Of a stretch of DNA of 64,000 nt, positions 2,857 through 56,352 are shown piece after piece. Both the position numbers and the translations under genes were made by a program. The stretch comes from Lepas anatifera (lineage: Eukaryota > Arthropoda > Thecostraca > Lepadidae). Below the pieces are notes generated by a model, which was given only the letters and a program-made list of their open reading frames with translations, had not been told where the DNA came from and did no database searches. Within the stretch, counting starts at the first letter, position 1, and the number at the start of each line of letters is the position of its first letter. The stretch covers positions 1,018,501 through 1,082,500 of the forward strand of contig JAOTON010001898.1 of NCBI GenBank assembly GCA_034440635.1, read 5' to 3'.

Positions 2857-3270
2857 GCGCTCGGGCAGCAGCAGAGCACGCACTCCCCATACCCAATCTT
2901 CCTGAGTCGGCTCGGGCAGCAGCAGAGCACGCACTCCCTATACCCACTCTTCCTGAGTCGGCTCGGGCAGCAGCAGAGCACGCACTCCCTATACCCACTC
3001 TCCCTGAGTCGGCTCGGGCAGCAGCAGAGCACGCACTCCCCATACCCACTCTTCCTGAGTCGGCTCGGGCAGCAGCAGAGCACGCACTCCCTATACCCAC
3101 TCTTCCTGAGTCGGCTCGGGCAGCAGCAGAGCACGCACTCCCCATACCCACTCTTCCTGAGTCGGCTCGGGCAGCAGCAGAGCACGCACTCCCTATACCC
3201 ACTCTCCCTGAGTCGGCTCCGGCAGCAGCAGAGCACGCACTCCCTATACCCACTCTCCCCTGAGTCGGCT
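2857..3270. repeat. 51-bp minisatellite, about 8 copies
   Basis: Direct repeat of a 51-bp unit starting CTCGGGCAGCAGCAGAGCAC and ending CCTGAGTCGG. Units differ mainly at one C/T site (CCCCATA or CCCTATA) and at TCTTCC or TCTCCC. Because 51 is a multiple of 3, reading frames stay open on both strands (LGQQQSTHS repeats); these are not taken as genes. Confidence 0.95.
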
Positions 3271-4552: not shown

Positions 4553-4660
4553 CTGTGCTGCTTGATCAAGTTGCAGTCTCCGCCTTCAGCGGTGTCCACG
4601 TTGTAGACGTACAGGTAACCATCGGCAGCCGCCACCAGCAGCCGCAGCTGCTTCTTAATC
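4553..4660 (-). CDS. WIPI2: WIPI2-like exon G
   Basis: 108 nt: one base completes Thr, then 35 codons plus two bases (phase 2 out). The peptide [20 protein letters not shown], then [15 protein letters not shown], is the last propeller blade (LLVGAADGYLYMYN in vertebrates). Acceptor GTTGGCAG|GATTAAG; donor CACAG|GTGGGC. A near copy of the acceptor region lies 177 bp upstream in gene orientation (4814-4852). Confidence 0.93.
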
Positions 4661-16925: not shown

Positions 16926-17650
16926 AGTGGCAGATACAAGGGGGCTAGGGGGTTCATGCCCCCCCGAACTATCAAGAGTGCATATAGTTGATGCATAGCC
17001 GGAGCCTGCTTCGAGGCAATGGCGGGAGACACAAGCCCCCCCCCCGGACGGAAATATTGTCCTGCAACTGCCGAGCCTGCTTCGAGGCAATGGCGGGAGA
17101 CACAAGCCCCCCCCCGGACGGAAATATTGTCCTGCAACTGCCGAGCCTGCTTCGAGGCAATGGCGAGATACACGAGCCCCCCCCTCCCCGGACGGAAATA
17201 TTGTCCTGCAACTGCCGAGCCTGCTTCGAGGCAATGGCGAGATACACGAGCCCCCCCTCCCCGGACGGAAATATTGTCCTGCAACTGCCGAGCCTGCTTC
17301 GAGGCAATGGCGAGATACACGAGCCCCCCCTCCCCGGACGGAAATATTGTCCTGCAACTGCCGAGCCTGCTTCGAGGCAATGGCGAGATACACGAGCCCC
17401 CCTCCCCGGACGGAAATATTGTCCTGCAACTGCCGAGCCTGCTTCGAGGCAATGGCGAGATACACGAGCCCCCCCCTCCCCGGACGGAAATATTGTCCTG
17501 CAACTGCCGAGCCTGCTTCGAGGCAATGGCGAGATACACGAGCCCCCCTCCCTCCCCGGACGGAAATATTGTCCTGCAACTGCCGAGCCTGCTTCGAAGC
17601 AATGGCGAGATACACGAGCCCCCCCCGGACGGAAATATTGTCCTGCATCT
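16926..17650. repeat. 73-bp minisatellite grown from a small DNA transposon
   Basis: Starts with CAGTGGCAGATACAAGGGGG, the terminal sequence of the element at 45934-46197 in inverse orientation. About 8-9 copies of a roughly 73-bp unit follow (AGCCTGCTTCGAGGCAATGG, then a variable C-tract, then CGGACGGAAATATTGTCC). GAGGCAATGGCGGGAG is shared with the interior of that transposon, so the unit came from it. C-tract length varies between copies. Long open frames on both strands are repeat artefacts. Confidence 0.85.
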
Positions 17651-18251: not shown

Positions 18252-18328
18252 GTGACAAGGCCGCAGACGCCGCGCAGTCCGGGAACGGGCAGGTGCACAG
18301 TGGCGAAGGCACGGCCCTGGTTCAGCAC
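18252..18328 (-). CDS. WIPI2: WIPI2-like exon F
   Basis: 77 nt, phase 0 in and phase 2 out. The peptide VLNQGRAFATVHLPVPG, followed by LRGVCGLV and a split Thr, corresponds to the conserved NQGRAFATVRLPFCG region. The FCG-HKN portion is altered here to VPG-LRG. Acceptor GTGGCAG|GTGCTG; donor GTCAC|GTAAGC. It lies 627 bp downstream of exon E, with the donor minisatellite and a transposon end in that intron, and is followed by a 13.6-kb intron. Confidence 0.88.
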
Positions 18329-18516: not shown

Positions 18517-18785
18517 GTGAGGGTGTAAATAAGCCATTGATTTCAAACTCCATCAAAACATTCCTGCAAGTTTTAGATGCGTGTTTGAAAGGTTCGTGCG
18601 TTAGGTGCATGCGTAATGAGCCTCATCACGTCACGCCTTAACTTTGAGCGGATGGAAGATCCAGTCTCAAAGACCCCAAAAGATGTCGACGCACACGGTC
18701 AAATCAGTGAAATCAGTGAGAGGAGAAAGCTTACCCCCGTGGAGAGAAGAATCTCAGTGGAGTAAGAAATATCTTCTCAGTGAAG

Positions 18786-18966
18786 GGAGACGCTCACCTC
18801 TGTGGCTGGGGGGAGGGACACGTTCACCTCTGTGTTGTGGGAGGGCGGGAGACGCCCACCTCTGTAACGTCGGAAGGAAGGAGACGCTCACCTTTGTGGT
18901 GTGGGAGGGCGGGAGACGCCCACCTCTGTAACGTCGCAGGGAGGGAGACGCTCACCTCTGTGACCT
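18786..18966 (-). repeat. 32-bp minisatellite carrying the exon E donor, six copies
   Basis: Sense-strand donors ACAGAG|GTGAGC or close variants occur with boundaries at 18955/18956 (the true exon E end), 18923/24, 18891/92, 18859/60, 18827/28 and 18797/98. Spacing is 32 bp, once 30. Variants include GTGGGC, GTGAAC and ACAAAG. Each unit has the exon's last 6-8 bases plus the start of the intron. Confidence 0.92.
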
Positions 18967-19049
18967 GGGAGGGCAGGTAGCTGGCTGAGGCTGTCACTGC
19001 CTTGCTCAGGTAGCCCATCCAGCCTCCATCTTCGGAACTCTTGGCGGGT
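18956..19049 (-). CDS. WIPI2: WIPI2-like exon E
   Basis: 94 nt: one base completes the Ala codon split with exon D, then 31 codons, ending phase 0. The peptide reads PAKSSEDGGWMGYLSKAV, then TASASYLPSQVTE. It matches the linker and blade segment that contains ASTSYLPSQVTE in vertebrate WIPI2. Acceptor GTGCAG|ACCC. The donor ACAGAG|GTGAGC is repeated five further times downstream at roughly 32-bp spacing, so the exon's last 8 or so bases are part of a minisatellite. Confidence 0.92.
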
Positions 19050-20450: not shown

Positions 20451-22752
20451 GCGCTAGCCACTGAGGTCTACACTCTACTGGCGCCGCCCCGTCCAGCGCT
20501 AGCCACTGAGGTCTACACTGTACTGGCACCGCCCCGTCCAGCGCTAGCCACTGAGGTCTACACTCTACTGGCGCCGCCCCGTCCAGCGCTAGCCACTGAG
20601 GTCTACACTCTACTGGCGCCGCCCCGTCCAGCGCTAGCCACTGAGGTCTACACTCTACTGGCGCCGCCCCGTCCAGCGCTAGCCACTGAGGTCTACACTC
20701 TACTGGCGCCGCCCCGTCCAGCGCTAGCCACTGAGGTCTACACTCTACTGGCGCCGCCCCGTCCAGCGCCAGCCACTGAGGTCTACACTCTACTGGCGCC
20801 GCCCCGTCCAGCGCTAGCCACTGAGGTCTACACTTACTGGCGCCGCCCCGTCCAGCGCTAGCCACTGAGGTCTACACTCTACTGGCGCCGCCCCGTCCAG
20901 CGCTAGCCACTGAGGTCTACACTCTACTGGCGCCGCCCCGTCCAGCGCTAGCCACTGAGGTTTAACTCACTGGCGCCGCCCCGTCCAGCGCTAGCCACTG
21001 AGGTCTCACTCTACTGGGCCGCCCCGTCCAGCGCTGCCACTGAGGTCTACACTACTGGCGCCGCCCGTCCAGCGCTGCCACTGAGGTCTACACTGTACTG
21101 GCGCCGCCCCGTCAGCGCTAGCCACTGAGGTCTCACGTACTGGCGCGCCCCGTCCAGCGCTAGCCACTGAGGTCTACACTCTACTGGCGCCGCCCCGTCC
21201 AGCGCTAGCCACTGAGGTCTACACCTACTGGCGCCGCCCCGTCCAGCGCTAGCCACTGAGGTCTACACCTACTGGCGCCGCCCCGTCCAGCGCTAGCCAC
21301 TGAGGTCTACACTCTACTGGCGCCGCCCCGTCAGGCTAGCCACTGAGGTCTACACTCTACTGGCGCCGCCCCGTCAGCGCTAGCCACTGAGGTCTACACT
21401 CTACTGGCGCCGCCCCGTCCAGCGCTAGCCACTGAGGTCTCACCTACTGGCGCCGCCCCGTCCAGCGCTAGCCACTGAGGTCTACACTGTACTGGCGCCG
21501 CCCCGTCCAGGCTAGCCACTGAGGTCTCACCTACTGGCGCCGCCCCGTCCAGCGCTAGCCACTGAGGTCTACACGTACTGGCGCCGCCCCGTCCAGCGCT
21601 AGCCACTGAGGTCTACACCTACTGGCGCCGCCCCGTCCAGCGCTAGCCACTGAGGTCTACACCTACTGGCGCCGCCCCGTCCAGCGCTAGCCACTGAGGT
21701 CTACACTCTACTGGCGCCGCCCCGTCCAGCGCTAGCCACTGAGGTCTACACTGTACTGGCGCCGCCCCGTCCAGCGCCAGCCACTGAGGTCTACACTCTA
21801 CTGGCGCCCCCCGTCCAGCGCTAGCCACTGAGGTCTACACTCTACTGGCGCCGCCCCGTCCAGCGCCAGCCACTGAGGTCTACACTGTACTGGCGCCGCC
21901 CGTCCAGCGCTAGCCACTGAGGTCTACACTCTACTGGCGCCGCCCCGTCCAGGCTAGCCACTGAGGTCTACACTTACTGGCGCCGCCCCGTCCAGCGCTA
22001 GCCACTGAGGTCTACACTCTACTGGCGCCGCCCCGTCCAGCGCTAGCCACTGAGGTCTACACTCTACTGGCGCCGCCCCGTCCAGCGCAGCCACTGAGGT
22101 CTACTCTACTGGCGCCGCCCCGTCCAGCGCTAGCCACTGAGGTCTACACTGTACTGGCGCCGCCCCGTCCAGCGCTAGCCACTGAGGTCTACACTCTACT
22201 GGCGCCGCCCCGTCCAGCGCTAGCCACTGAGGTCTACACTGTACTGGCACCGCCCCGTCCAGCGCTAGCCACTGAGGTCTACACTCTACTGGCGCCGCCC
22301 CGTCCAGCGCTAGCCACTGAGGTCTACACTCTACTGGCGCCGCCCCGTCCAGCGCTAGCCACTGAGGTCTACACTCTACTGGCGCCGCCCCGTCCAGCGC
22401 TAGCCACTGAGGTCTACACTCTACTGGCGCCGCCCCGTCCAGCGCTAGCCACTGAGGTCTACACTCTACTGGCGCCGCCCCGTCCAGCGCTAGCCACTGA
22501 GGTCTACACTGTACTGGCGCCGCCCCGTCCAGCGCTAGCCACTGAGGTCTACACTCTACTGGCGCCGCCCCGTCCAGCGCTAGCCACTGAGGTCTACACT
22601 CTACTGGCGCCGCCCCGTCCAGCGCTAGCCACTGAGGTCTACACTCTACTGGCGCCGCCCCGTCCAGCGCTAGCCACTGAGGTCTACACTCTACTGGCGC
22701 CGCCTCGTCCAGCGCTAGCCACTGAGATCTACACTGTACTGGCGCCGCCCAG
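20451..22752. repeat. 45-bp minisatellite, about 51 copies
   Basis: Unit begins GCGCTAGCCACTGAGGTCTA and ends CGCCGCCCCGTCCA. Both edges (20455-20830 and 22110-22750) are nearly uniform. The centre (about 20940-22110) carries many single-base deletions that break the period. The minus-strand PQWLALDGAAPVECR frames are artefacts of the 15-codon period. Confidence 0.97.
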
Positions 22753-24662: not shown

Positions 24663-25056
24663 CATGATGATAATGTTATAAAAAATTAACCGGCAATCGC
24701 TCATAGTATAATTAAATTGAAAATGCCAAATAGTATATTGATATTTCGACGGCGTGTCTTCTTCAGGAGCAAGTTGTGAATTTGAAAGTCATTGATAGCA
24801 ATGATTTTTAAATTCAATTTGAATTTAGGGCGAACAGCAAGCAGGTAAACGTGAAAACAATGTTTAACATCTCGTGAAGGATACAGTGTGATGAGTTACC
24901 TACAAAAAGAGACATTTAAAAACTACAGGATACAGAAACTAAACACACATAAAAGCACAGTATGCAACAAAACTATGGATGTAACAGTGAGTAAAAACAA
25001 TTTTCAGCGATGGATGTGTGGTGGTATGGCGAGTGTTTATGCGTGGTGGTTTGGTC

Positions 25057-26571
25057 TTAAGTGGTATAAGTGTATGTGTATGGTACTGGTTGTAGGAGGC
25101 GCCACGAGGAGAATTGCTTATTTATTTGTGGTCTGCGGTTTCGGATTTCTATTGATTCTTTAATTTTGCATTCTGCCGAGTCTTTACAAACATGAATAAT
25201 TTTTATTGCGAAGTCCTTGTCTGTGATGCGTGTAGTGGGGTGATGTGATATGGTGTGGTCTCCTAGATACTTACCCTTTTCTTTTCTCCTAGCGTGTCCT
25301 AAATGTTCCAAGAAGCGGGTACGGATTTGGCGAGTAGTTTCCCCTATATAAAACATGTTGCAAAGTAGGCATGTGATAAGGTATACTGTATTTTTGATGT
25401 GGCACCTCCCCTGTAACCCGGCGTCGCATGTGCTGCATGATTTCCTGTGTCCTTTAGGGCATGGTGGTGGGTTTAGTGATGATCTTATGAGGATGTTTGA
25501 GAGTGTTTCACCACTCTTCCAGGCTATCGTAATGTCTAGGTCTGTGGATCTGGCTGCGGTGGTGATCTTGTGCGTGAGCTGCTCATCAATGTATGGGAGA
25601 GAGATGTAAGTTGTGTTCCTGTTCTTGTTCTTGGGACGTGGTTGGCATTGTTTATATTTGGCAGAGTTTTGTATGTTTTTGATGAGTTTGGCCGGGTATC
25701 CGTTCGACATAAATAGTTCCATGATTTTTTCTAGGCCACGGTTTTTTGCAGGTAGGTCTGATCCCAGCCGGATGGCTCTAAGTGACTGTGCGTGTATAAC
25801 TGATCTTTTAGTTTGCATAGGATGAGCGGAAGTGAAATGTAGAATTGTCGGCGCCGTCATGGGTTTTATATAGAGTTCTGTGGTGTACTTTCCAGAGGGA
25901 TGTACGGTCAGGAGGGTGTCTAGAAATGGAATCTGTTGATGTTGAGAGTGGTCTGACCTATCTATGCTGAACTTGAGAGCCGGGTGAAAATCATTGATGA
26001 AAGTGAAATATTTCGTTAGGGTCTCTGAGCCATGTGTCCATATTCCAAAGATGTCATCTATATATCTTAAGTAAATGATAGGTTGCAATTCACTGGCTGA
26101 TAGGATCAGGGATTCAATGGTGTTCATAAAAGGATTGCCAATGGGGGTGCTATACGGCTGCCCATTGCTATGCCCTTAGTTTGTTTGAATATTTCCCCCA
26201 AATCTGACGTAATTGTTGTTAAGACAATGCTTTAAAAGTGATTCTAAGTCAGGAATAGTAAGGCCAAATAAGTTGATTTTATTGGTGTGAGTACGTATCA
26301 TTTCAATGGTCGAGCTGATGGCCTCTGCTGTGGGTATGTTACCATAGAGATTATTGACATCCATAGTGAAGGCTATTGTACCGGCTGGGAAGTTGTATGG
26401 AAATTTTACCTTGATTCTGTCCAAATAGTCGTAGGTGTTTGTAAGATGACCCGGGACAAATACTAATAGCTGTGTGATAATACGCTCGAGGACCCATGAC
26501 AACTTGTCAAACTCAAAAGACATGTCAAAAGACAAACTCCCGGATAAGGTGATACAATCAATCAATCCCAC
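25057..26571 (-). pseudogene. Penelope-like RT/GIY-YIG, left arm
   Basis: Minus-strand copy. RT motif A reads DVNNLYGNIPTAEA; the catalytic loop is RYIDDIFGIWTHG; then IPFLDTLLTVHPSGKY. A Cys/His cluster CPKGHRKSCSTCDAGLQGRC precedes the GIY-YIG region VYLITC, then FYIGETTRQIRTRFLEHLGH. The frame breaks twice between motif A and YIDD, around the GIAMGSRIAPPLA segment (26120-26200), at the same places as the right arm. The N-terminal RT region is missing. Confidence 0.88.
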
Positions 26572-28117
26572 AGAGTCGAGGACAGCCGAGCTATACGGCT
26601 TACCTAAAACTCATAAGCCTAACAACCCACTTCGACCCATCGTATCGGCCTGTGGGGATCCATTGGACAAGTTGTCATGGGTCCTCGAGCGTATTATCAC
26701 ACAGCTATTAGTATTTGTCCCGGCTCATCTTACAAACACCTACGACTATTTGGACAGAATCAAGGTAAAATTTCCATACAACTTCCCAGCCGGTACAATA
26801 GCCTTCACTATGGATGTCAATAATCTCTATGGTAACATACCCACAGCAGAGGCCATCAGCTCGACCATTGAAATGATACGTACTCACACCAATAAAATCA
26901 ACTTATTTGGCCTTACTATTCCTGACTTAGAATCACTTTTAAAGCATTGTCTTAACAACAATTACGTCAGATTTGGGGGAAATATTCAAACAAACTAAGG
27001 GCATAGCAATGGGCAGCCGTATAGCACCCCCATTGGCAATCCTTTTATGAACACCATTGAATCCCTGATCCTATCAGCCAGTGAATTGCAACCTATCATT
27101 TACTTAAGATATATAGATGACATCTTTGGAATATGGACACATGGCTCAGAGACCCTAACGAAATATTTCACTTTCATCAATGATTTTCACCCGGCTCTCA
27201 AGTTCAGCATAGATAGGTCAGACCACTCTCAACATCAACAGATTCCATTTCTAGACACCCTCCTGACCGTACATCCCTCTGGAAAGTACACCACAGAACT
27301 CTATATAAAACCCATGACCGCGCCGACAATTCTACATTTCACTTCCGCTCATCCTATGCAAACTAAAAGATCAGTTATACACGCACAGTCACTTAGAGCC
27401 ATCCGGCTGGGATCAGACCTACCTGCAAAAAACCGTGGCCTAGAAAAAATCATGGAACTATTTATGTCGAACGGATACCCGGCCAAACTCATCAAAAACA
27501 TACAAAACTCTGCCAAATATAAACAATGCCAACCACGTCCCAAGAACAAGAACAGGAACACAACTTACATCTCTCTCCCATACATTGATGAGCAGCTCAC
27601 GCACAAGATCACCACCGCAGCCAGATCCACAGACCTAGACATTACGATAGCCTGGAAGAGTGGTGAAACACTCTCAAACATCCTCATAAGATCATCACTA
27701 AACCCACCACCATGCCCTAAAGGACACAGGAAATCATGCAGCACATGCGACGCCGGGTTACAGGGGAGGTGCCACATCAAAAATACAGTATACCTTATCA
27801 CATGCCTACTTTGCAACATGTTTTATATAGGGGAAACTACTCGCCAAATCCGTACCTGCTTCTTGGAACATTTAGGACACGCTAGGAGAAAAGAAAAGGG
27901 TAAGTATCTAGGAGACCACACCATATCACATCACCCCACTACACGCATCACAGACAAGGACTTCGCAATAAAAATTATTCATGTTTGTAAAGACTCGGCA
28001 GAATGCAAAATTAAAGAACCAATAGAAATCCGAAACCGCAGACCACAAATAAATAAGCAATTCTCCTCGTGGCGCCTCCTACAACCAGTACCATACACAT
28101 ACACTTATACCACTTAA
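26474..28117 (+). pseudogene. Penelope-like RT/GIY-YIG, right arm
   Basis: Plus-strand copy, longer at the 5' side: it includes LYGLPKTHKPNNPLRPIVSA before motif A. Frame lost near 26980 and again near 27045, around GIAMGSRIAPPLA. Downstream is one 356-codon open stretch with RYIDD, the Cys/His cluster and GIY-YIG. In that stretch it differs from the left arm by only two residues (RTRFLEH to RTCFLEH, KESIEI to KEPIEI). Reverse transcription and target cleavage would be the ancestral roles; this copy is broken. Confidence 0.88.
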
Positions 28118-28407
28118 GACCAAACCACCACGCATAAACACTCGCCATACCACCACACATCCATCGCTGAAAATTGTTTTTACTCACTGTTACATCCATA
28201 GTTTTGTTGCATACTGTGCTTTTATGTGTGTTTAGTTTCTGTATCCTGTAGTTTTTAAATGTCTCTTTTTGTAGGTAACTCATCACACTGTATCCTTCGC
28301 GAGATGTTAAACATTGTTTTCACGTTTACCTGCTTGCTGTTCGCCCTAAATTCAAATTGAATTTAAAAATCATTGCTATCAATGACTTTCAAATTCACAA
28401 CTTGCTC

Positions 28408-28430
28408 CTGAAGAAGACACGCCGTCGAAA
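28408..28430 (+). ncRNA. hammerhead-like hairpin in Penelope 3' region
   Basis: CTGAAGA, one base, GAC, loop ACGCC, GTC, GAAA. The mirror copy in the left arm lies near 24743-24765. See the matching motif at 2453-2475. Confidence 0.4.
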
Positions 28431-28548
28431 TATCAATATACTATTTGGCATTTTCAATTTAATTATACTATGAGCGAATGCCGGTTAATTTTTATAACAT
28501 TATCATCATGACTTTCACGCTCATTACAACACTTCAAACTCTTAAAAC

Positions 28549-28853
28549 TTGCTACTGATACCGCTACTGCTACTGATGCCGCTACTGCTGCCGCTACTGC
28601 TACTGATACCACTACTGCTGCCGCTACTGCTACTGATACCGCTACTGCTGCCGCTACTGATACTGATACCGCTGTTGCTACTGATACCGCTACTGCTACC
28701 GCTACTGCTACTGATACCGCTACTGCTACTGATATCGCTACTGCTGCTGATATCGCTACTACTGCTGATATCGCTACTACTGCTGCTACCGTTTACTGCT
28801 ACTGCTGCTGATACTGCTACTACCGCTACTACTGCTAATGCTACTGCTACTCA
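28549..28853. repeat. ACT/GCT-rich array abutting the exon D donor
   Basis: Same repeat type as 23101-24662. On the sense (minus) strand the exon D donor GTGAGTAGC continues directly into AGTAGC-type repeats. Confidence 0.92.
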
Positions 28854-28854
28854 C

Positions 28855-28997
28855 GCAGGAGCCACCGCCGTCTCAGACAGTTTAAACACGTGGATGGTCT
28901 CCGTGTTACTGCTCAGCGCCAGGAACTGCGAGTCCGGTGAGAAGCACATGCTGGAGATCTGCGCACACCGCTTCAAACCCCGCCGCAGCTCGTACGC
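28855..28997 (-). CDS. WIPI2: WIPI2-like exon D with LRRG lipid-binding motif
   Basis: 143 nt, phase 0 in and phase 2 out (47 codons plus GC). Begins AYELRRGLKRCAQISSMCF and ends NTETIHVFKLSETAVAP. The LRRG motif at residues 4-7 of the exon is the signature of PROPPINs, whose two arginines contact phosphoinositide headgroups in the two binding pockets. Acceptor is GGCAG|GCGTAC; donor is CCTGC|GTGAGTAGC. The donor runs directly into an AGTAGC-type array, which on the plus strand occupies 28549-28853. The following intron is 9.8 kb. Confidence 0.93.
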
Positions 28998-33002: not shown

Positions 33003-33374
33003 TGTGCACCCGCCCGACCACACTACCCGCCCGCCACACCACCCACCCGACCACAACACCCGCCCGACCACACCACCCACCCGACCACAACACCCACCCG
33101 ACCACAACACCCGCCCGACCAAACACCCCCCACCACAACACCCGCCCGACCACACAACCCGCCCGACCACACAACCCGCCCGACCACACCACCCGCCCGA
33201 CCACAACACCCGCCCGACCACAACCCCCCCGCCCCCACCACAACACCCGCCCGACCACAACACCCGCCCGACCACAACACCCGCCCGACCACAACCCCCC
33301 CCCCACCACAACACCCGCCCGACCACAACACCCGCCCGACCACAACACCCGCCCGACCACAACACCCACCCGGC
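33003..33374. repeat. 17-bp minisatellite, about 22 copies, next to exon C donor
   Basis: Unit CCCGCCCGACCACAACA with small variants. On the sense strand each unit has GGGCGGG, so any two neighbours supply four G-runs (G-quadruplex potential). It stops about 10 bp from the exon C donor. Confidence 0.95.
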
Positions 33375-33386
33375 TGCGGCACTCAC

Positions 33387-33521
33387 CTTGGAGCCGTCCT
33401 TTACGTTGAAGACTCTGATGACAGTGCCTTTCTCGGAGGCAGTTGCCACCTGCGAGCCTCCGGCGTTGAAGGCCACGGCGGCAACCGGAGAGTCGTGTGC
33501 TGGCAGCATGGTCTTGGCTTG
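33387..33521 (-). CDS. WIPI2: WIPI2-like exon C
   Basis: 135 nt, 45 codons, phase 0 at both ends. Peptide begins [18 protein letters not shown] and continues through [18 protein letters not shown] to KDGSK. This is the WIPI blade with the AHDSP and [13 protein letters not shown] signatures. Acceptor CCGCAG|CAAGCC and donor TCCAAG|GTGAGTG are both strong. The 421-bp intron to exon B is the shortest between B and D. A 17-bp G-rich (sense strand) array begins about 10 bp into the next intron. Confidence 0.95.
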
Positions 33522-33887
33522 CTGCGGAGATCACACTTTGCATCAGCAGCTCTCAGGGTGATGCACCATGGCGGCGCAAAAACTAATGTAGAAGACAGCT
33601 GCAAATAAGGCTCACCCGCCGACATTCATCTAACATTGATGATAGGTTTCAGTCTACTCTGATGGCAAAGCCGCTGAAGCCGGATCACTAGCAGTTATAG
33701 ACGGACCAGTGCACTGAAGTTGACTTGCAACGGAGCAGGGCGGCTCTTTCGTTGACTGACAGCAAGCACAACCGCAGCCAGCTGACAATGAGAGCCCTCA
33801 CCTGCATGTTTTCGCATTAGCACTTTACTCCCTTTAAGCCGCAAGCTGATTTGCAGATATGCACTAAGCTGATATATCTCAACTGCT

Positions 33888-33892
<5 letters not shown>

Positions 33893-33935
<43 letters not shown>

Positions 33936-33942
33936 CTCTCAC
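33893..33942. repeat. CT (sense GA) microsatellite at exon B donor
   Basis: About 24 CT units with one CG interruption. On the sense strand they begin inside the donor, GTGAGAGAGCGAGAGA. Confidence 0.95.
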
Positions 33943-34137
33943 CAGGTTCAGGGCGTCGAACACCTGCAGCTCGCCGATGCTGGCCGAGCCGGGGTAGGCC
34001 AGGTAGCAGGCGTCGCTGTTGGTGCTCAGCGCACACACGCCGCGCGGGTTGGCCGGCGTGTCGCGGATGGTGTGGATCAGCTTCATGTCCCGTATGTTGT
34101 GAATGTACAGCGATTCCTCCAAACACACCACCAGACG
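33943..34137 (-). CDS. WIPI2: WIPI2-like exon B
   Basis: 195 nt, exactly 65 codons, phase 0 at both ends. Begins [19 protein letters not shown] and ends [11 protein letters not shown], with [12 protein letters not shown] in the middle, one of the best conserved WIPI segments. The acceptor is CAG at 34138-34140 with CTGAC about 20 nt upstream as a possible branchpoint. The donor CTG|GTGAGAGAG runs straight into a GA microsatellite. The exon's first 32 or so bases are the first unit of the huge 64-bp array, so this exon contributed the array unit, or was its seed. Joins to exon A as LNRA-RLVV, where vertebrate WIPI2 has LNRQ-RLIV. Confidence 0.95.
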
Positions 34138-37100
34138 CTGCGGGCACGCTCGTGTCAGCTACACTGTTGTACAGCGATTCCTCCAAACACACCACCAGAC
34201 GCTGCGTGCACGCTCGTGTCAGCCACACTGTGGTACAGCGATTCCTCCAAACACACCACCAGACGCTGCGGGCACGCTCGTGTCAGCTACACTGTTGTAC
34301 AGCGACTCCTCCAAACACACCACCAGACGCTGCGTGCACGCTCGTGTCAGCCACACTTTTGTACAGCGACTCCTCCAAACACACCACCAGACGCTGCGTG
34401 CACGCTCGTGTCAGCTACACTGTTGTACAGCAATTCCTCCAAACACACCACCAGACGCTGCGGGCACGCTCGTGTCAGCTACACTGTTGTACAGCGATTC
34501 CTCCAAACACACCACCAGACGCTGCGTGCACGCTCGTGTCAGCTACACTGTTGTACAGCGATTCCTCCAAACACACCACCAGACGCTGCGGGCACGCTCG
34601 TGTCAGCTACACTGTTGTACAGCGATTCCTCCAAACACACCACCAGACGCTGCGGGCACGCTCGTGTCAGCCACACCGTTGTACAGCGATTCCTCCAAAC
34701 ACACCACCAGACGCTGCGTGCACGCTCGTGTCAGCTACACTGTTGTCCAGCGATTCCTCCAAACACACCACCAGACGCTGCGTGCACGCTCGTGTCAGCT
34801 ACACTGTTGTACAGCGATTCCTCCAAACACACCACCAGACGCTGCGTGCACGCTCGTGTCAGCCACACTGTTGTACAGCGATTCCTCCAAACACACCACC
34901 AGACGCTGCGTGCACGCTCGTGTCAGCTACACTGTTGTACAGCGATTCCTCCAAACACACCACAAGACGCTGCGTGCACGCTCGTGTCAGCTACACTGTT
35001 GTACAGCGATTCCTCCAAACACACCACCAGACGCTGCGTGCACGCTCGTGTCAGCTACACTGTGGTACAGCGATTCCTCCAAACACACCACCAGACGCTG
35101 CGGGCACGCTCGTGTCAGCTACACTGTTGTACAGCGACTCCTCCAAACACACCACCAGACGCTGCGTGCACGCTCGTGTCAGCTACACTGTTGTACAGCG
35201 ATTCCTCCAAACACACCACCAGACGCTGCGGGCACGCTCGTGTCAGCTACACTGTTGTACAGCGATTCCTCCAAACACACCACCAGACGCTGCGTGCACG
35301 CTCGTGTCAGCCACACTGTTGTACAGCGATTCCTCCAAACACACCACCAGACGCTGCGTGCACGCTCGTGTCAGCTACACTGTTGTACAGCGACTCCTCC
35401 AAACACACCACCAGACGCTGCGGGCACGCTCGTGTCAGCTACACTGTTGTACAGCGATTCCTCCAAACATACCACCAGACGTTGCGGGCACGCTCGTGTC
35501 AGCTACACTGTTGTACAGCGATTCCTCCAAACACACCACCAGACGCTGCGTGCACGCTCGTGTCAGCTACACTGTTGTACAGCGACTCCTCCAAACACAC
35601 CACCAGACGCTGCGGGCACGCTCGTGTCAGCTACACTGTTGTACAGCGACTCCTCCAAACACACCACCAGACGCTGCGGGCACGCTCGTGTCAGCTACAC
35701 TGTTGTACAGCGACTCCTCCAAACACACCACCAGACGCTGCGGGCACGCTCGTGTCAGCTACACTGTTGTACAGCGATTCCTCCAAACACACCACCAGAC
35801 GCTGCGGGCACGCTCGTGTCAGCTACACTGTTGTACAGCGACTCCTCCAAACACATCACCAGACGCTGCGGGCACGCTCGTGTCAGCTACACTGTTGTAC
35901 AGCGATTCCTCCAAACACACCACCAGACGCTGCGTGCACGCTCGTGTCAGCTACACTGTTGTACAGCGATTCCTCCAAACACACCACCAGACGCTGCGGG
36001 CACGCTCGTGTCAGCTACACTGTTGTACAGCGACTCCTCCAAACACACCACCAGACGCTGCGGGCACGCTCGTGTCAGCTACACTGTTGTACAGCGATTC
36101 CTCCAAACACACCACCAGACGCTGCGTGCACGCTCGTGTCAGCTACACTGTTGTACAGCGACTCCTCCAAACACACCACCAGACGCTGCGGGCACACTCG
36201 TGTCAGCTACACTGTTGTACAGCGACTCCTCCAAACACACCACCAGACGCTGCGGGCACGCTCGTGTCAGCTACACTGTTGTACAGCGATTCCTCCAAAC
36301 ACACCACCAGACGCTGCGGGCACGCTCGTGTCAGCTACACTGTTGTACAGCGATTCCTCCAAACACACCACCAGACGCTGCGTGCACGCTCGTGTCAGCT
36401 ACACTGTTGTACAGCGATTCCTCCAAACACACCACCAGACGCTGCGTGCACGCTCGTGTCAGCCACACTGTTGTACAGCGATTCCTCCAAACACACCACC
36501 AGACGCTGCGTGCACGCTCGTGTCAGCTTTTAACTCCAAACACACCACCAGACGCTGCGGGCACGCTCGTGTCAGCTACACTGTTGTACAGCGATTCCTC
36601 CAAACACATCACCAGACGCTGCGGGCACGCTCGTGTCAGCTACACTGTTGTACAGCGATTCCTCCAAACACACCACCAGACGCTGCGTGCACGCTCGTGT
36701 CAGCTACACTGTTGTACAGCGATTCCTCCAAACACACCACCAGACGCTGCGGGCACGCTCGTGTCAGCTACACTGTTGTACAGCGACTCCTCCAAACACA
36801 CCACCAGACGCTGCGTGCACGCTCGTGTCAGCTACACTGTTGTACAGCGACTCCTCCAAACACACCACCAGACGCTGCGTGCACGCTCGTGTCAGCTACA
36901 CTGTTGTACAGCGACTCCTCCAAACACACCACCAGACGCTGCGTGCACGCTCGTGTCAGCTACACTGTTGTACAGCGATTCCTCCAAACACACCACCAGA
37001 CGCTGCGGGCACGCTCGTGTCAGCCACACTGTTGTACAGCGATTCCTCCAAACACACCACCAGACGCTGCGTGCACGCTCGTGTCAGCTACACTGTTGTA

Positions 37101-40100
37101 CAGCGATTCCTCCAAACACACCACCAGACGCTGCGTGCACGCTCGTGTCAGCTACACTGTTGTACAGCGATTCCTCCAAACACACCACCAGACGCTGCGT
37201 GGACGCTCGTGTCAGCCACACTGTTGTACAGCGATTCCTCCAAACACACCACCAGACGCTGCGTGCACGCTCGTGTCAGCTACACTGTTGTACAGCGATT
37301 CCTCCAAACACACCACCAGACGCTGCGTGCACGCTCGTGTCAGCTACACTGTTGTAGAGCGATTCCTCCAAACACACCACCAGACGCTGCGTGCACGCTC
37401 GTGTCAGCTACACTGTGGTACAGCGATTCCTCCAAACACACCACCAGACGCTGCGGGCACGCTCGTGTCAGCTACACTGTTGTACAGCGACTCCTCCAAA
37501 CACACCACCAGACGCTGCGTGCACGCTCGTGTCAGCCACACTGTTGTACAGCGACTCCTCCAAACACACCACCAGGCGCTGCGGGTACGCTCGTGTCAGC
37601 TACACTGTTGTACAGCGATTCCTCCAAACACACCACCAGACGCTGCGGGCACGCTCGTGTCAGCTACACTGTTGTACAGCAATTCCTCCAAACACACCAC
37701 CAGACGCTGCGTGCACGCTCGTGTCAGCTACACTGTTGTACAGCGACTCCTCCAAACACACCACCAGACGCTGCGGGCACGCTCGTGTCAGCTACACTGT
37801 TGTACAGCGACTCCTCCAAACACACCACCAGACGCTGCGGGCACGCTCGTGTCAGCTACACTGTTGTACAGCGACTCCTCCAAACACACCACCAGACGCT
37901 GCGGGCACGCTCGTGTCAGCTACACTGTTGTACAGCGACTCCTCCAAACACACCACCAGACGCTGCGGGCACGCTCGTGTCAGCTACACTGTTGTACAGC
38001 GATTCCTCCAAACACACCACCAGACGCTGCGGGCACGCTCGTGTCAGCTACACTGTTGTACAGCGACTCCTCCAAACACACCACCAGACGCTGCGGGCAC
38101 GCTCGTGTCAGCTACACTGTTGTACAGCGACTCCTCCAAACACACCACCAGACGCTGCGGGCACGCTCGTGTCAGCTACACTGTTGTACAGCGACTCCTC
38201 CAAACACACCACCAGACGCTGCGGGCACGCTCGTGTCAGCTACACTGTTGTACAGCGACTCCTCCAAACACACCACCAGACGCTGCGGGCACGCTCGTGT
38301 CAGCTACACTGTTGTACAGCGACTCCTCCAAACACACCACCAGACGCTGCGGGCACGCTCGTGTCAGCTACACTGTTGTACAGCGATTCCTCCAAACACA
38401 CCACCAGACGCTGCGGGCACGCTCGTGTCAGCCATACTGTTGTACAGCGACTCCTCCAAACACACCACCAGACGCTGCGGCCACGCTCGTGTCAGCTACA
38501 CTGTTGTACAGCGATTCCTCCAAACACACCACCAGACGCTGCGGGCACGCTCGTGTCAGCTACACTGTTGCACAGCGATTCCTCCAAACACACCACCAGA
38601 CGCTGCGGGCACGCTCGTGTCAGCTACACTGTTGTACAGCGACTCCTCCAAACACACCACCAGACGCTGCGTGCACGCTCGTGTCAGCTACACTGTTGTA
38701 CAGCGATTCCTCCAAACACACCACCAGACGCTGCGGGCACGCTCGTGTCAGCTACACTGTTGTACAGCGATTTCTCCAAACACACCACCAGACGCTGCGG
38801 GCACGCTCGTGTCAGCTACACTGTTGTACAGCGATTCCTCCAAACACACCACCAGACGCTGCGTGCACGCTCGTGTCAGCTACACTGTTGTACAGCGATT
38901 CCTCCAAACACACCACCAGACGCTGCGGGCACGCTCGTGTCAGCTACACTGTTGTACAGCGATTCCTCCAAATACACCACCAGACGCTGCGGGCACGCTC
39001 GTGTCAGCTACACTGTTGTACAGCGATTCCTCCAAACACACCACCAGACGCTGCGGGCACGCTCGTGTCAGCTACACTGTTGTACAGCGATTCCTCCAAA
39101 CACACCACCAGACGCTGCGGGCACGCTCGTGTCAGCTACACTGTTGTACAGCGATTCCTCCAAACACACCACCACACGCTGCGTGCACGCTCGTATCAGC
39201 TACACTGTTGTACAGCGATTCCTCCAAACACACCACCAGACGCTGCGGGCACGCTCGTGTCAGCTACACTGTTGTACAGCAATTCCTCCAAACACACCAC
39301 CACACGCTGCGGGCACGCTCGTGTCAGCTACACTGTTGTACAGCGATTCCTCCAAACACACCACCAGACGCTGCGGGCACGCTCGTGTCAGCTACACTGT
39401 TGTACAGCGATTCCTCCAAACACACCACCAGACGCTGCGGGCACGCTCGTGTCAGCTACACTGTTGTACAGCAATTCCTCCAAACACACCACCACACGCT
39501 GCGGGCACGCTCGTGTCAGCTACACTGTTGTACAGCGATTCCTCCAAACACACCACCAGACGCTGCGGGCACGCTCGTGTCAGCTACACTGTTGTACAGC
39601 GATTCCTCCAAACACACCACCAGACGCTGCGTGCACGCTCGTGTCAGCCACACTGTTGTACAGCGATTCCTCCAAACACACCACCACACGCTGCGGGCAC
39701 GCTCGTGTCAGCTACACTGTTGTACAGCGATTCCTCCAAACACACCACCAGACGCTGCGGGCACGCTCGTGTCAGCTACACTGTTGTACAGCGATTCCTC
39801 CAAACACACCACCAGACGCTGCGGGCACGCTCGTGTCAGCTACACTGTTGTACAGCGATTCCTCCAAACACACCACCAGACGCTGCGGGCACGCTCGTGT
39901 CAGCTACACTGTTGTACAGCAATTCCTCCAAACACACCACCACACGCTGCGGGCACGCTCGTGTCAGCTACACTGTTGTACAGCGATTCCTCCAAACACA
40001 CCACCAGACGCTGCGGGCACGCTCGTGTCAGCTACACTGTTGTACAGCGATTCCTCCAAACACACCACCAGACGCTGCGGGCACGCTGGTGTCAGCTACA

Positions 40101-40361
40101 CTGTTGTACAGCGATTCCTCCAAACACACCACCACACGCTGCGGGCACGCTCGTGTCAGCTACACTGTTGTACAGCGATTCCTCCAAACACACCACCAGA
40201 CGCTGCGGGCACGCTCGTGTCAGCTACACTGTTGTACAGCGATTCCTCCAAACACATCACCAGACGCTGCGTGCACGCTCGTATCAGCTACACTGTTGTA
40301 CAGCGATTCCTCCAAACACACCACCAGACGCTGCGGGCACGCTCGTGTCAGCTACACTGTC
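34106..40361 (-). repeat. 64-bp minisatellite of about 98 copies built on the exon B acceptor
   Basis: Each unit, read on the gene's sense strand, holds GTAGCTGACACGAGC (CTGAC is branchpoint-like), then GTGCACGCAG or GTGCCCGCAG (acceptor), then CGTCTGGTGGTGTGTTTGG and GGAATCGCTGTAC, the start of exon B. The first unit is the real exon boundary. One unit near 36520-36535 is 15 bp short. Variable sites include GGGCA/GTGCA, GATTCC/GACTCC and, towards the far end, CCACACGCTG. Period 64 shifts phase each unit and the plus strand has no stops, giving spurious frames over 2000 codons long. Confidence 0.97.
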
Positions 40362-40439
40362 ACCAACCTGTTACCTAAAATACTAGTTTTTTGGTCTTTC
40401 TCGCCTCAAGTGAGGCCAAGTTAAAAGACACGGACACCA

Positions 40440-40822
40440 AAGACACCAATTTTAGCGTTTGATACTGTTAGTACCGTAACTATTTTAACCTTCACTTGTT
40501 AAAACTCAATGATATTATTACTGAACAGAAAATTATAATTCTATCAAAATTTTTAAGCCAATCACTACCATATGCCATCTCATCACTCGTTCAATATCAT
40601 CGTCCTGCAAACACTCGCCTAGTACAACATTTTCATGTTCCTTTAGCAACAACGAATTATAGATCATTTTCAATATCATGTTCAGCTCCAAAAGCGTGGA
40701 ACCAGATAATATGTCCGATTTTTTCAAATCTTGATGAGGTTCCATTGCAGAAATATACATTAAAGAAAATTATCAGAGAACATTTTAGGAACCAGTATCG
40801 ATCCCAGGAGGGGAATCAATAG
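40440..40822 (+). mobile_element. LINE 3' end fragment
   Basis: An open stretch with HRPANTRLVQHFHVPLATTN, then YRSFSISCSAPKAWNQI, then KYTLKKIIREHF. R-tR..-F..P...T..y..SFS....-.WN is the usual C-terminal tail of CR1/L2/RTE-type LINE proteins. A different lineage from the I-type pieces. Confidence 0.7.
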
Positions 40823-41341
40823 TAAATGGATTCAGGTAAAAAATCAAGCTATCAAGTACTTTCTTTTTTGTGATTCTTTTTCATCTCGCTGCCTAGTTTT
40901 TTCATAGCCATTGACTGACCAGTTTTTTCTTCTTTTTATGAGGTTCTTATTTAACCCTGAAAAAACTTTAATCCACTAATACCAACTTTAGAGTACCCAA
41001 GTTTCTCTCGAATGTTACTAGTTCTGCTATTCTTTTCGAGAGGAGACTTGGGGAAATACTCAGTAAACAACTTTTGTTTTCATTTGTAAAGCAAAGAACA
41101 AATGGAGCGGGGAGTGGTGCGACCTTCAAGTAAGATATTAACATACATGTCCCAAATTTACAACCGGAAAATTTGTAGTTTGAAGAAAATTAAAGACTAT
41201 TTGTGATAATGTCCATAGTGAAAACGACAAGAGACTGCAACGACTGAAATGTTCACAAGCGTGTGCGGTAACGTGTGGCAAAGTTGCTCAGGCTCTCTGT
41301 AGCCCTTCAGAGTGCAGGGAGTGAGGGCGTGGTCCACCTAC
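40823..41341. other. intron A/B remainder
   Basis: Nothing recognised between the LINE tail and exon A. Confidence 0.3.
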
Positions 41342-41508
41342 CGCCCTGTTGAGCCGCACGGCCACAATGGTGTTGGTGTAGTCGTACTCGCAGACCTTGG
41401 TGCCCTTCTTGAAGTGGCAGACCTGCAGGCGCCGCGGCAGCGCCTGCGTAACCAGCGTCACCAGACTGCTGCTGAACAGCCGCTCCACGATCAGCACGTC
41501 CCCGATCT
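41342..41508 (-). CDS. WIPI2: WIPI2-like exon A (first recovered exon)
   Basis: 167 nt: two bases completing a split codon plus 55 codons, ending in phase 0 at the donor GCG|GTAGGT. The peptide runs [16 protein letters not shown], then [15 protein letters not shown], then [12 protein letters not shown], matching WIPI blades 1-2 just before the [11 protein letters not shown] segment. The acceptor is CAG at 41509-41511. That acceptor lies at the start of a 68-bp unit repeated about three times to 41707, so two more near-identical acceptor contexts lie upstream. The 5' base could instead be placed three bases inward at a second AG; the frame favours the call given. Confidence 0.9.
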
Positions 41509-41707
41509 CTGCCGGACACAGCGCAGCGCCGTGATGGAGGTGACGCCGCTCCGACCCTGTCCGCTCAGCCAGCAGTCTGCCGGACACAGCGCAGCGCGGT
41601 GATGGAGGTGACGCCGCTCCGACCCTGTCCGCTCAGCCAGCAGTCTGCCGGACACAGCGCAGCGCGGTGATGGAGGTGACGCTGCTCCGACCCTGTCCGC
41701 TCAGCCA
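41508..41707 (-). repeat. 68-bp minisatellite carrying the exon A acceptor, three copies
   Basis: Units begin at 41508, 41576 and 41644 with TCTGCCGGACACAGCGCAGC. On the sense strand each unit ends TGTCCGGCAG|A, the exon A acceptor. The unit nearest the exon has GCGCC where the others have GCGCG. Confidence 0.92.
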
Positions 41708-47134: not shown

Positions 47135-47238
47135 TTGCAGGGACAGTTGGTCCCCGAAATGTGTTTTTATTTTCAAGTTTGATTTGCACTCTTGTTATTG
47201 GTATGAGTTTTGACATTCTGGTTTGCTGCCATGGCGCC

Positions 47239-47909
47239 CTTCTGGCACGGCCGGCGGAGTGGTGGCGGTGCGCATCAGCACCCCTTCCGGCACGGCCGGC
47301 GGAGTGGTGGGGTGCGCATCAGCACCCCTTCCGGCACGGCCGGCGGAGTGGTGGCGGTGCGCATCAGCACCCCTTCTGGCACGGCCGGCGGAGTGGTGGC
47401 GGTGCGCATCAGCACCCCTTCCGGCACGGCCGGCGGAGTGGTGGCGGTGCGCATCAGCACCCCTTCTGGCACGGCCGGCGGAGTGGTGGCGGTGCGCATC
47501 AGCACCCCTTCTGGCACGGCCGGCGGAGTGGTGGCGGTGCGCATCAGCACCCCTTCCGGCACGGCCGGCGGAGTGGTGGGGTGCGCATCAGCACCCCTTC
47601 TGGCACGGCCGGCGGAGTGGTGGGGGTGCGCATCAGCACCCCTTCTGGCACGGCCGGCGCAGTGGTGGGGGTGCGCATCAGCACCCCTTCCGGCACGGCC
47701 GGCGGAGTGGTGGGGGTGCGCATCAGCACCCCTTCTGGCACGGCCGGCGGAGTGGTGGCGGTGCGCATCAGCACCCCTTCCGGCACGGCCGGCGGAGTGG
47801 TGGCGGTGCGCATCAGCACCCCTTCTGGCACGGCCGGCGGAGTGGTGAGGGTGCGCATCAGCACCCCTTCCGGCACGGCCGGCGCAGTGGTGGGGGTGCG
47901 CATCAGCAC
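47239..47909. repeat. 45-bp minisatellite, about 15 copies
   Basis: Unit TTCTGGCACGGCCGGCGGAG, then TGGTGGCGGTGCG, then CATCAGCACCCC. The last unit is cut at ATCAGCAC by the foldback element. One further partial unit resumes on the other side (51784-51830). Confidence 0.95.
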
Positions 47910-52189: not shown

Positions 52190-52710
52190 GTTTTTCTCAG
52201 TACAGCAGTTATGACCTAGTCCTCTTGCCTGTTTGAGGTTTCTCAGTACAGCAGTTATGACCGATTGCTCCTGCCTGTTTGAAATTCCTCAGTACAGCAG
52301 TTATGATTGACTCCTCTTGCCTGTTTGAAGTTTCTCAGTACGACATTTATGACCAAGTGAGCCGGCCTGTTTAAGTTACCGCAGTACAGCAGTTATGACC
52401 GAGTATTCCGGCCTGTTTAAGGTTCCTTAGTAAGCAGTTATGACCGAGTCCTCTTGCCTGTTTGAGGTTTCTCAGTATGGCATTTATGACCCGAGTGATC
52501 CGGCCTGTTTAAGGTTTCTCAGTACAGCAGTTATGACCGAGTCCTCTTGCCTGTTTGAGGTTCCTCAGTACAGCAGTTATGACCGAGTCCTCTTGCCTGT
52601 TTGAGGTTCCTCAGTACAGCAGTTATCACCGAATCCTCTTGCCTGTTTGAGGTTCCTCAGTACAGCAATTATGACCGAGTGCTCCGGCCTGTTTGACATT
52701 CCTCAGTCTA
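52190..52710. repeat. 46-bp minisatellite, about 11 copies
   Basis: Unit TTCCTCAGTACAGCAGTTAT then GACCGAGTCCTCTTGCCTG; variants CTCCGG/CTCTTG and small indels. Confidence 0.93.
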
Positions 52711-55441: not shown

Positions 55442-56323
55442 TTAGTATTTGGTACTGCCGTATGGACGTTTGACCCAGTGTTGCCACTGAAGGGGGATAT
55501 CCTTGCGCCCATACGACTTCTGGAGAGCCTCGATCCTCTGGGCACAAGTCAACGCGCCAAGAAGCGTTGCTGGCCTGGTTTTAATGACAGATATCTGCAT
55601 GTCTGGATTGTTCAATGCTTCAACAAATTGATCACGGATCAGCCGGTCAAGGAGTTCCGCGGGTGCCCCGGGGTATGCTAGCGTTCCCAATCTCTTGACA
55701 TCGTATGCGAGCTCAGAGAGCGTCTCATTTTGATGCCTTGATCTATCTCTGAACTGGGTAAGGAATAGTTCCTCTTGGTGAGGAATCCCAAAACGCTGGT
55801 CGAGTACCTCTGAAAGCATGACAAAATCCAAATCGACACCCAGTGACAGATGGCCGAGAATCTCTAACGCTGTCCCTCTGAGGCTCGCAATAAGCTGAGT
55901 AGCCCTTTCCTGATTATTCCATCCATTCTGGTCAGCAATAGCTTGGAACTGGGCCTTGTAAGCCGCCCATGATATTGTTCCATCATAAGGCTGGGGCACA
56001 AAATGTCCCATGCAGCTTGCCACCGGCTTTGTGTCAGACAGGTTCTCCCCGCCATGTTGACCTACATCAACAGCCCGCATGGAATCAAGAAGGCATGAGC
56101 CCATCAAGTCAGTGAGCGTCTGGACCTGCCTCTGTAGTTCCTCAAACTGTGCTTGAGAAGGGTGGCCGTGATATTGATTCACTACTGAGCTGGGGAACTG
56201 AGCCGCAGAACACACAGCTTGAGCTGCTGTCACTGCCTCCACCTTTTCCATACCATTGGGTTCACTAATTTTCTGGGTCTGACTCCTTGTTGTAATACCC
56301 TTACCATCCCTAATTGAAGACAA
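55442..56323 (-). mobile_element. Gypsy-type LTR retrotransposon gag
   Basis: 293-codon open frame starting MSSIRDGKGITTRSQTQK. Residues about 109-150 hold FVPQPYDGTISWAAYKAQFQ, then IADQNGWNNQERATQLIASL and RGTALEILGHL. These are typical of the retrotransposon gag (capsid) domain of Ty3/Gypsy elements, which packages element RNA into particles. Upstream on the same strand, at about 56335-56352, is TTGGTGTCAGAAGTAG, a usual leader next to the primer-binding site, preceded by GTTCGTAACA as a likely LTR end. No protease, RT or integrase follows, and no zinc knuckle is seen, so this is a truncated copy. Confidence 0.85.
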
Positions 56324-56352
56324 CGTGGGTTACGTGACTACTTCTGACACCA

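Follow-up and report, generated by a model that had tools for sequence, protein, structure and literature searches.

How does a spliceosome settle on one 3′ splice site when the intron offers it many equal ones? This long-standing question is made directly testable by an intron of a WIPI2-like gene of Lepas anatifera, in which 97 near-identical decoys and the real acceptor lie within one natural intron and differ mainly in position and exon context. The locus was analyzed in a 64-kb window, which is the whole stretch of DNA under study (64,000 nucleotides).

The host gene belongs to the WIPI2/PROPPIN type and lies on the minus strand, with seven exons found in the window between 41508 and 4553. 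The exons and the intron that carries the array are as follows:

41342..41508, minus strand: exon A, 167 nt
34138..41341, minus strand: intron A-B of 7204 nt, with 6223 nt taken up by the array
33943..34137, minus strand: exon B, 195 nt, starting inside the terminal repeat unit
33387..33521, minus strand: exon C, 135 nt
28855..28997, minus strand: exon D, 143 nt
18956..19049, minus strand: exon E, 94 nt
18252..18328, minus strand: exon F, 77 nt
4553..4660, minus strand: exon G, 108 nt

When joined, exons A to G formed a single open frame of 305 residues. The joined protein contained the PROPPIN domain PF21032 (E = 2.3e-114), and a 208-residue part of it was matched by the human WIPI2 structure 7xfr_A (E = 3.7e-97). 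The best match, judged from the best 120 of 1116 matches, was a WIPI2-like protein of Amphibalanus amphitrite (P0202) with 93% identity. All three results agree with the original prediction of a WIPI2-like gene, and the product appears to be a PROPPIN beta-propeller that is closest to WIPI2. The first exon and the exons beyond G were not found in the 64-kb window. Among 118 related proteins, a strict pattern recovered an intact junction between exons A and B in 105, and inspection of the remaining 13 added 12 more, for a total of 117; the exception was P0246, in which the junction is altered. These proteins are mostly gene predictions, and the comparison concerns the proteins and not their introns.

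The array at the exon B acceptor and its terminal unit were placed as follows:

34104..40360, minus strand: 64-bp tandem array of 98 units, one of them 49 bp (TRF, period 64, 98.0 copies)
34104..34166, minus strand: terminal unit with the functional acceptor, matching the consensus at all 63 nt

A unit-by-unit walk along the minus strand counted 98 units, all 64 bp long except for one of 49 bp, so that TRF and the walk both bear out the predicted number of about 98 tandem copies. Each unit consists of 29 nt of the 3′ end of the intron, with CTGAC and then GCAG, followed by the first 35 nt of exon B, which read as 11 residues. The unit had been described as an acceptor with its first coding bases, and this holds except that the exonic part measures 35 nt rather than 32. 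The A of CTGAC sits 17 nt ahead of the last base of the acceptor. The acceptor AG is kept in 97 of the 98 units and replaced by AA in the remaining one, and CTGAC is retained by 95 of the 97 units that are 64 bp long. To call the unit a complete 3′ splice site was nevertheless an overstatement, since AG and CTGAC are present but a good polypyrimidine tract is not; the pyrimidine content ahead of the array AG is 0.47. Exon B starts within the terminal unit, and in a junction built in silico this unit splices exon A to exon B in the conserved frame, as expected from the earlier placement of the functional exon there. The array is also covered in antisense by a plus-strand open frame of 2172 codons (33868-40386). 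None of the three plus-strand frames of the unit contains a stop, and the same holds for 1860 of 20000 shuffles (9.3%).

Tandem arrays are prone to misassembly, and one lancelet array at an intron-exon border was misassembled in one genome draft, according to the available text of the lancelet reports. An assembly error that inflated the copy number or created the array is still quite improbable here, in view of the diversity of the units. The 97 64-bp units comprised 33 distinct sequences, with 23 units identical to the consensus and a mean of 1.2 differences per unit. One variant was restricted to units 3-18 (6 of 6 occurrences in the first 19 of 98 units, P = 2.6e-5) and another to units 26-94. 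Identical neighboring units were more frequent than in shuffles (17 vs. 10, P = 0.013), and the longest exact repeat in the array was 336 bp. Higher-order block duplication was not supported, as the longest run of repeated unit types was 4, compared to 3.4 after shuffling (P = 0.37). The regional variants, the identical neighbors, the missing block pattern and the 336-bp maximum together fit local turnover and argue against a simple assembly stutter.

The substitutions among the units gave no clear sign of constraint on the decoy splice signals, although the numbers are small and weak constraint is possible. The 25 distinct substitution types corresponded to 0.37 per exonic site, 0.43 per site between CTGAC and AG, 0.50 in AG and 0.50 in the other intronic sites, with 0.20 in CTGAC itself (1 type, 5 sites). 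Two kinds of difference had been removed before counting, namely single changes within the six leading bases of the unit that adjoins the broken one and the difference at the flank of the terminal unit. The synonymous share of the exonic substitution types was 5 of 12, compared to the 26% expected.

Splicing was then simulated to each of the 98 acceptors. For 96 of them the first stop fell 93 or 108 nt past the junction, inside the array, while the nearest decoy met its first stop at 483 nt and the terminal acceptor was stop-free through all exons found. Every decoy position (97 of 97) thus gave a premature stop in the simulation. This accords with the expectation that nearly all alternatives would end in decay, the decay itself being what such stops would probably bring about.

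The same premature stops could be taken as a sign of a regulated switch between productive and unproductive splicing, in which the array length or a splicing factor would set the share of decoy use and so tune the level of WIPI2. A further point in its favor comes from C. elegans, where a minisatellite is over-represented near regions of alternative splicing, as stated in the available part of PMC4039745. However, chance alone usually places a stop within about 36 codons, the decoy signals are without clear constraint, and a stretch of four units is less stable when folded than its shuffles (z = +2.5). Normal splicing has also been reported for the lancelet arrays, as far as the accessible text of those papers goes. 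No evidence for a regulatory switch was found in the sequence, and we regard this reading as unlikely. A wider form of it would treat array length as a heritable and fast-changing dial on autophagy, in which longer arrays would yield more decaying decoy transcripts, WIPI2 would vary between individuals, and the border minisatellites of barnacle genes would add up to variable splice-site redundancy throughout the genome; this proposal is very unlikely.

With regard to RNA structure, masking of the decoys by folding was tried as a candidate and rejected, as four units (257 nt) were less stable than their shuffles (z = +2.54) and 199 of 200 shuffles folded at least as well. A search with Rfam at the gathering threshold returned no matches in the 64-kb window.

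The strength of the acceptors was estimated with general weight matrices not trained on barnacles, and on this scale the terminal acceptor scored -4.0, the lowest of the seven acceptors of the gene (the others ranged from -2.5 to 2.5). The acceptors of the array copies spanned -6.4 to -2.3. Weak as the decoys are, so is the real site, which shares their sequence. Moreover, a score of -4.0 beats 74% of the 3731 other AGs in the region, which means that the decoys are not negligible. About 97 branch-point-like motifs and acceptor AGs within one intron might suggest that the transcribed array serves as a sponge that titrates U2AF, SF1 or U2 snRNP. The pyrimidine content of 0.47 and an acceptor score below those of the six other acceptors speak against such a role, and a single locus would presumably be a small sink compared to a genome full of introns. 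Decoys without a good pyrimidine tract make a U2AF sponge in particular unlikely, which weighs against that part of the original prediction, and titration by the array in any form seems to us extremely improbable.

Each unit also carries a GT nine bases past the acceptor. On the same general matrices its donor score was 2.5, compared to 1.4 for the 95th percentile of regional GTs; the real donors of exons A (2.8) and F (3.0) score only slightly higher. This would be compatible with use of the units as 9-nt in-frame microexons, running from the acceptor to this GT and adding RLV steps to the protein. Exons of 9 nt are rare and enhancer-dependent. Against this reading, no RLV insert is present at the junction in 117 of the 118 related proteins, most of them predictions, and the alteration in P0246 is of another kind; we give microexon use hardly any credence.

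Repeats were also found at other splice borders of the same gene, where two arrays multiply a splice site and three further repeats adjoin a donor without spanning it:

41508..41707, minus strand: 68-bp array (2.9 copies) in which the exon A acceptor CCGGCAG occurs three times
18784..18974, minus strand: 32-bp array across the exon-intron border of exon E, in which the donor of this exon occurs six times at 30-32-bp spacing
33007..33372, minus strand: 17-bp array that starts at 15 nt from the donor of exon C
33892..33940, minus strand: run of the dinucleotide GA, at 3 nt from the donor of exon B
28550..28851, minus strand: AGTAGC-type array that starts 4 nt from the exon D donor

The two smaller border arrays (exons A and E) are short enough to escape the dependence on assembly that affects the large one, and this too argues against an assembly error. 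The exon-side ends of the three CCGGCAG copies were at 41644, 41576 and 41508, and both decoy acceptors of exon A would lead to stops, on the condition that the exon ahead of A has the end phase that P0202 suggests. At exon E, stops followed from 4 of the 5 decoy donors, while the decoy at +96 nt was in frame and stop-free. Unproductive outcomes thus do not extend to all decoys of this gene, and the +96 nt donor could give a longer isoform.

An array end lay within 40 nt of 6 of the 14 splice sites, compared to about 1 expected (P = 0.0005 when the exons were placed independently, P = 0.002 by rotation), and within 20 nt of 5 of the 14, compared to 0.53 (P = 0.00035 and 0.001). Because the exon B acceptor had prompted the finding, the calculation was repeated with this acceptor and its array omitted, and the values were then 5 of 13 vs. 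0.87 within 40 nt (P = 0.002) and 5 of 13 vs. 0.47 within 20 nt (P = 0.0003). These tests used 30 arrays, hand-merged from 45 TRF rows and covering 23% of the window. The clustering may mean that arrays were merely halted by exons rather than born at the borders.

Minisatellites with no exon found alongside were also observed in the window, at 20451-22750, 47237-47909, 52196-52707, 17002-17647 and 2859-3270. In intron D-E, two copies of a Penelope-like element (24663-28510) are inverted head to head, with arms of about 1.85 kb that are 99.6% identical, and sit between two stretches of one and the same AGTAGC-type array. The element gave 81 matches, of which only three were named; all three were from A. 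amphitrite, the best at 60%. Together with the best match of the WIPI2-like protein, these matches are most consistent with a barnacle other than A. amphitrite as the source of the DNA, and a lancelet source, which the lancelet reports on such repeats had suggested, was rejected on the same grounds. An open frame on the minus strand (55442-56329) resembled PNMA weakly, with an E-value of 0.0009 that falls short of the curated cut-off, and is possibly a gag-like retrotransposon remnant.

The explanation that we consider most probable is that the array is a nearly neutral minisatellite that arose by duplication of an intron-exon border and of which the exon-proximal copy is used, that is, a structure of the kind named a "mirage" in lancelets. 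A short tandem duplication over the intron-exon border would have started the array, which would then have grown inside the intron by slippage or unequal exchange. Such growth would be cheap, since the mRNA stays the same as long as the final, exon-proximal acceptor is used. The terminal copy would be preferred because it alone precedes the whole 195-nt exon and because it lies nearest to the donor of exon B, as exon definition would favor in a 7.2-kb intron, while each decoy has no more than 35 nt of exon behind it. Splicing to a decoy would lead to a premature stop, and decay would probably clear these errors. In the available text of a study of human alternative sites (PMC9225289), the sites closest across the exon are favored in large introns; in the same text, there is an overall preference for upstream 3′ splice sites, which exon definition lessens but does not abolish. 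A clean choice of the last among 98 acceptors is consequently not guaranteed, and from this human pattern, as far as that text reports it, some decoy leakage that is cleared by decay would be expected.

The original prediction had left two possibilities, a splicing problem that the cell solves by position and a regulatory device. The former is the better supported, because in the arrays at exons A, B and E alike it is the exon-proximal copy that gives the conserved protein, although one exon E decoy also keeps the frame, and because the lancelet counterparts are reported to splice normally; the regulatory readings are without positive evidence.

Lancelet mirages are tandem duplications of intron-exon borders, at either border, and have been described at Adh3, the globins BflGb6 and BflGb9, troponin C and PGBD5; the available text of these reports (PMC3087553, PMC3902484) records instability in length and no aberrant mRNAs for the Adh, troponin C and globin genes tested. 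By its sequence, the barnacle array has the anatomy of a mirage. Its unit spans the exon-intron border (29 nt of intron and 35 nt of exon), the splice signal is present in most copies (AG in 97 of 98), and the authentic border is the one at the exon-side end of the array. It differs in scale, as the lancelet units given in that text measure 10-160 bp with 6 and 3 copies at BflGb6, compared to 98 copies and 6.3 kb here, and in that three border arrays (exons A, B and E) occur in one gene, unlike the named lancelet cases. Normal splicing and length instability are lancelet reports, whereas the barnacle array is known from one assembly.

A minisatellite with multiple splice donor sites was described in 1995 in the human interferon-induced transcript 6-16 (IFI6/G1P3), according to the title of that report. 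As in the exon E array, a splice site at an exon edge is multiplied there by a minisatellite, but the site is a donor, in contrast to the acceptor at exon B. The unit in IFI6/G1P3 is said to be 12 bp long and present in about 26 copies. Intron gain through tandem duplication across splice signals has been proposed for the lancelet globins in the accessible text of PMC3087553, and it resembles the present case in that duplication over a splice signal creates new potential sites. It differs in that no new intron is evident at the exon B array, which is intronic and flanked by exons of one conserved protein.

No report of border minisatellites in a barnacle or other crustacean was found in the open-licence literature, and the available text of PMC9582164 contains nothing on repeats at splice borders. 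In comparison to the known systems, the novel features are the copy number, the presence of three border arrays in one gene and, as far as the open-licence literature goes, the host group, which suggests that border minisatellites extend beyond lancelets.
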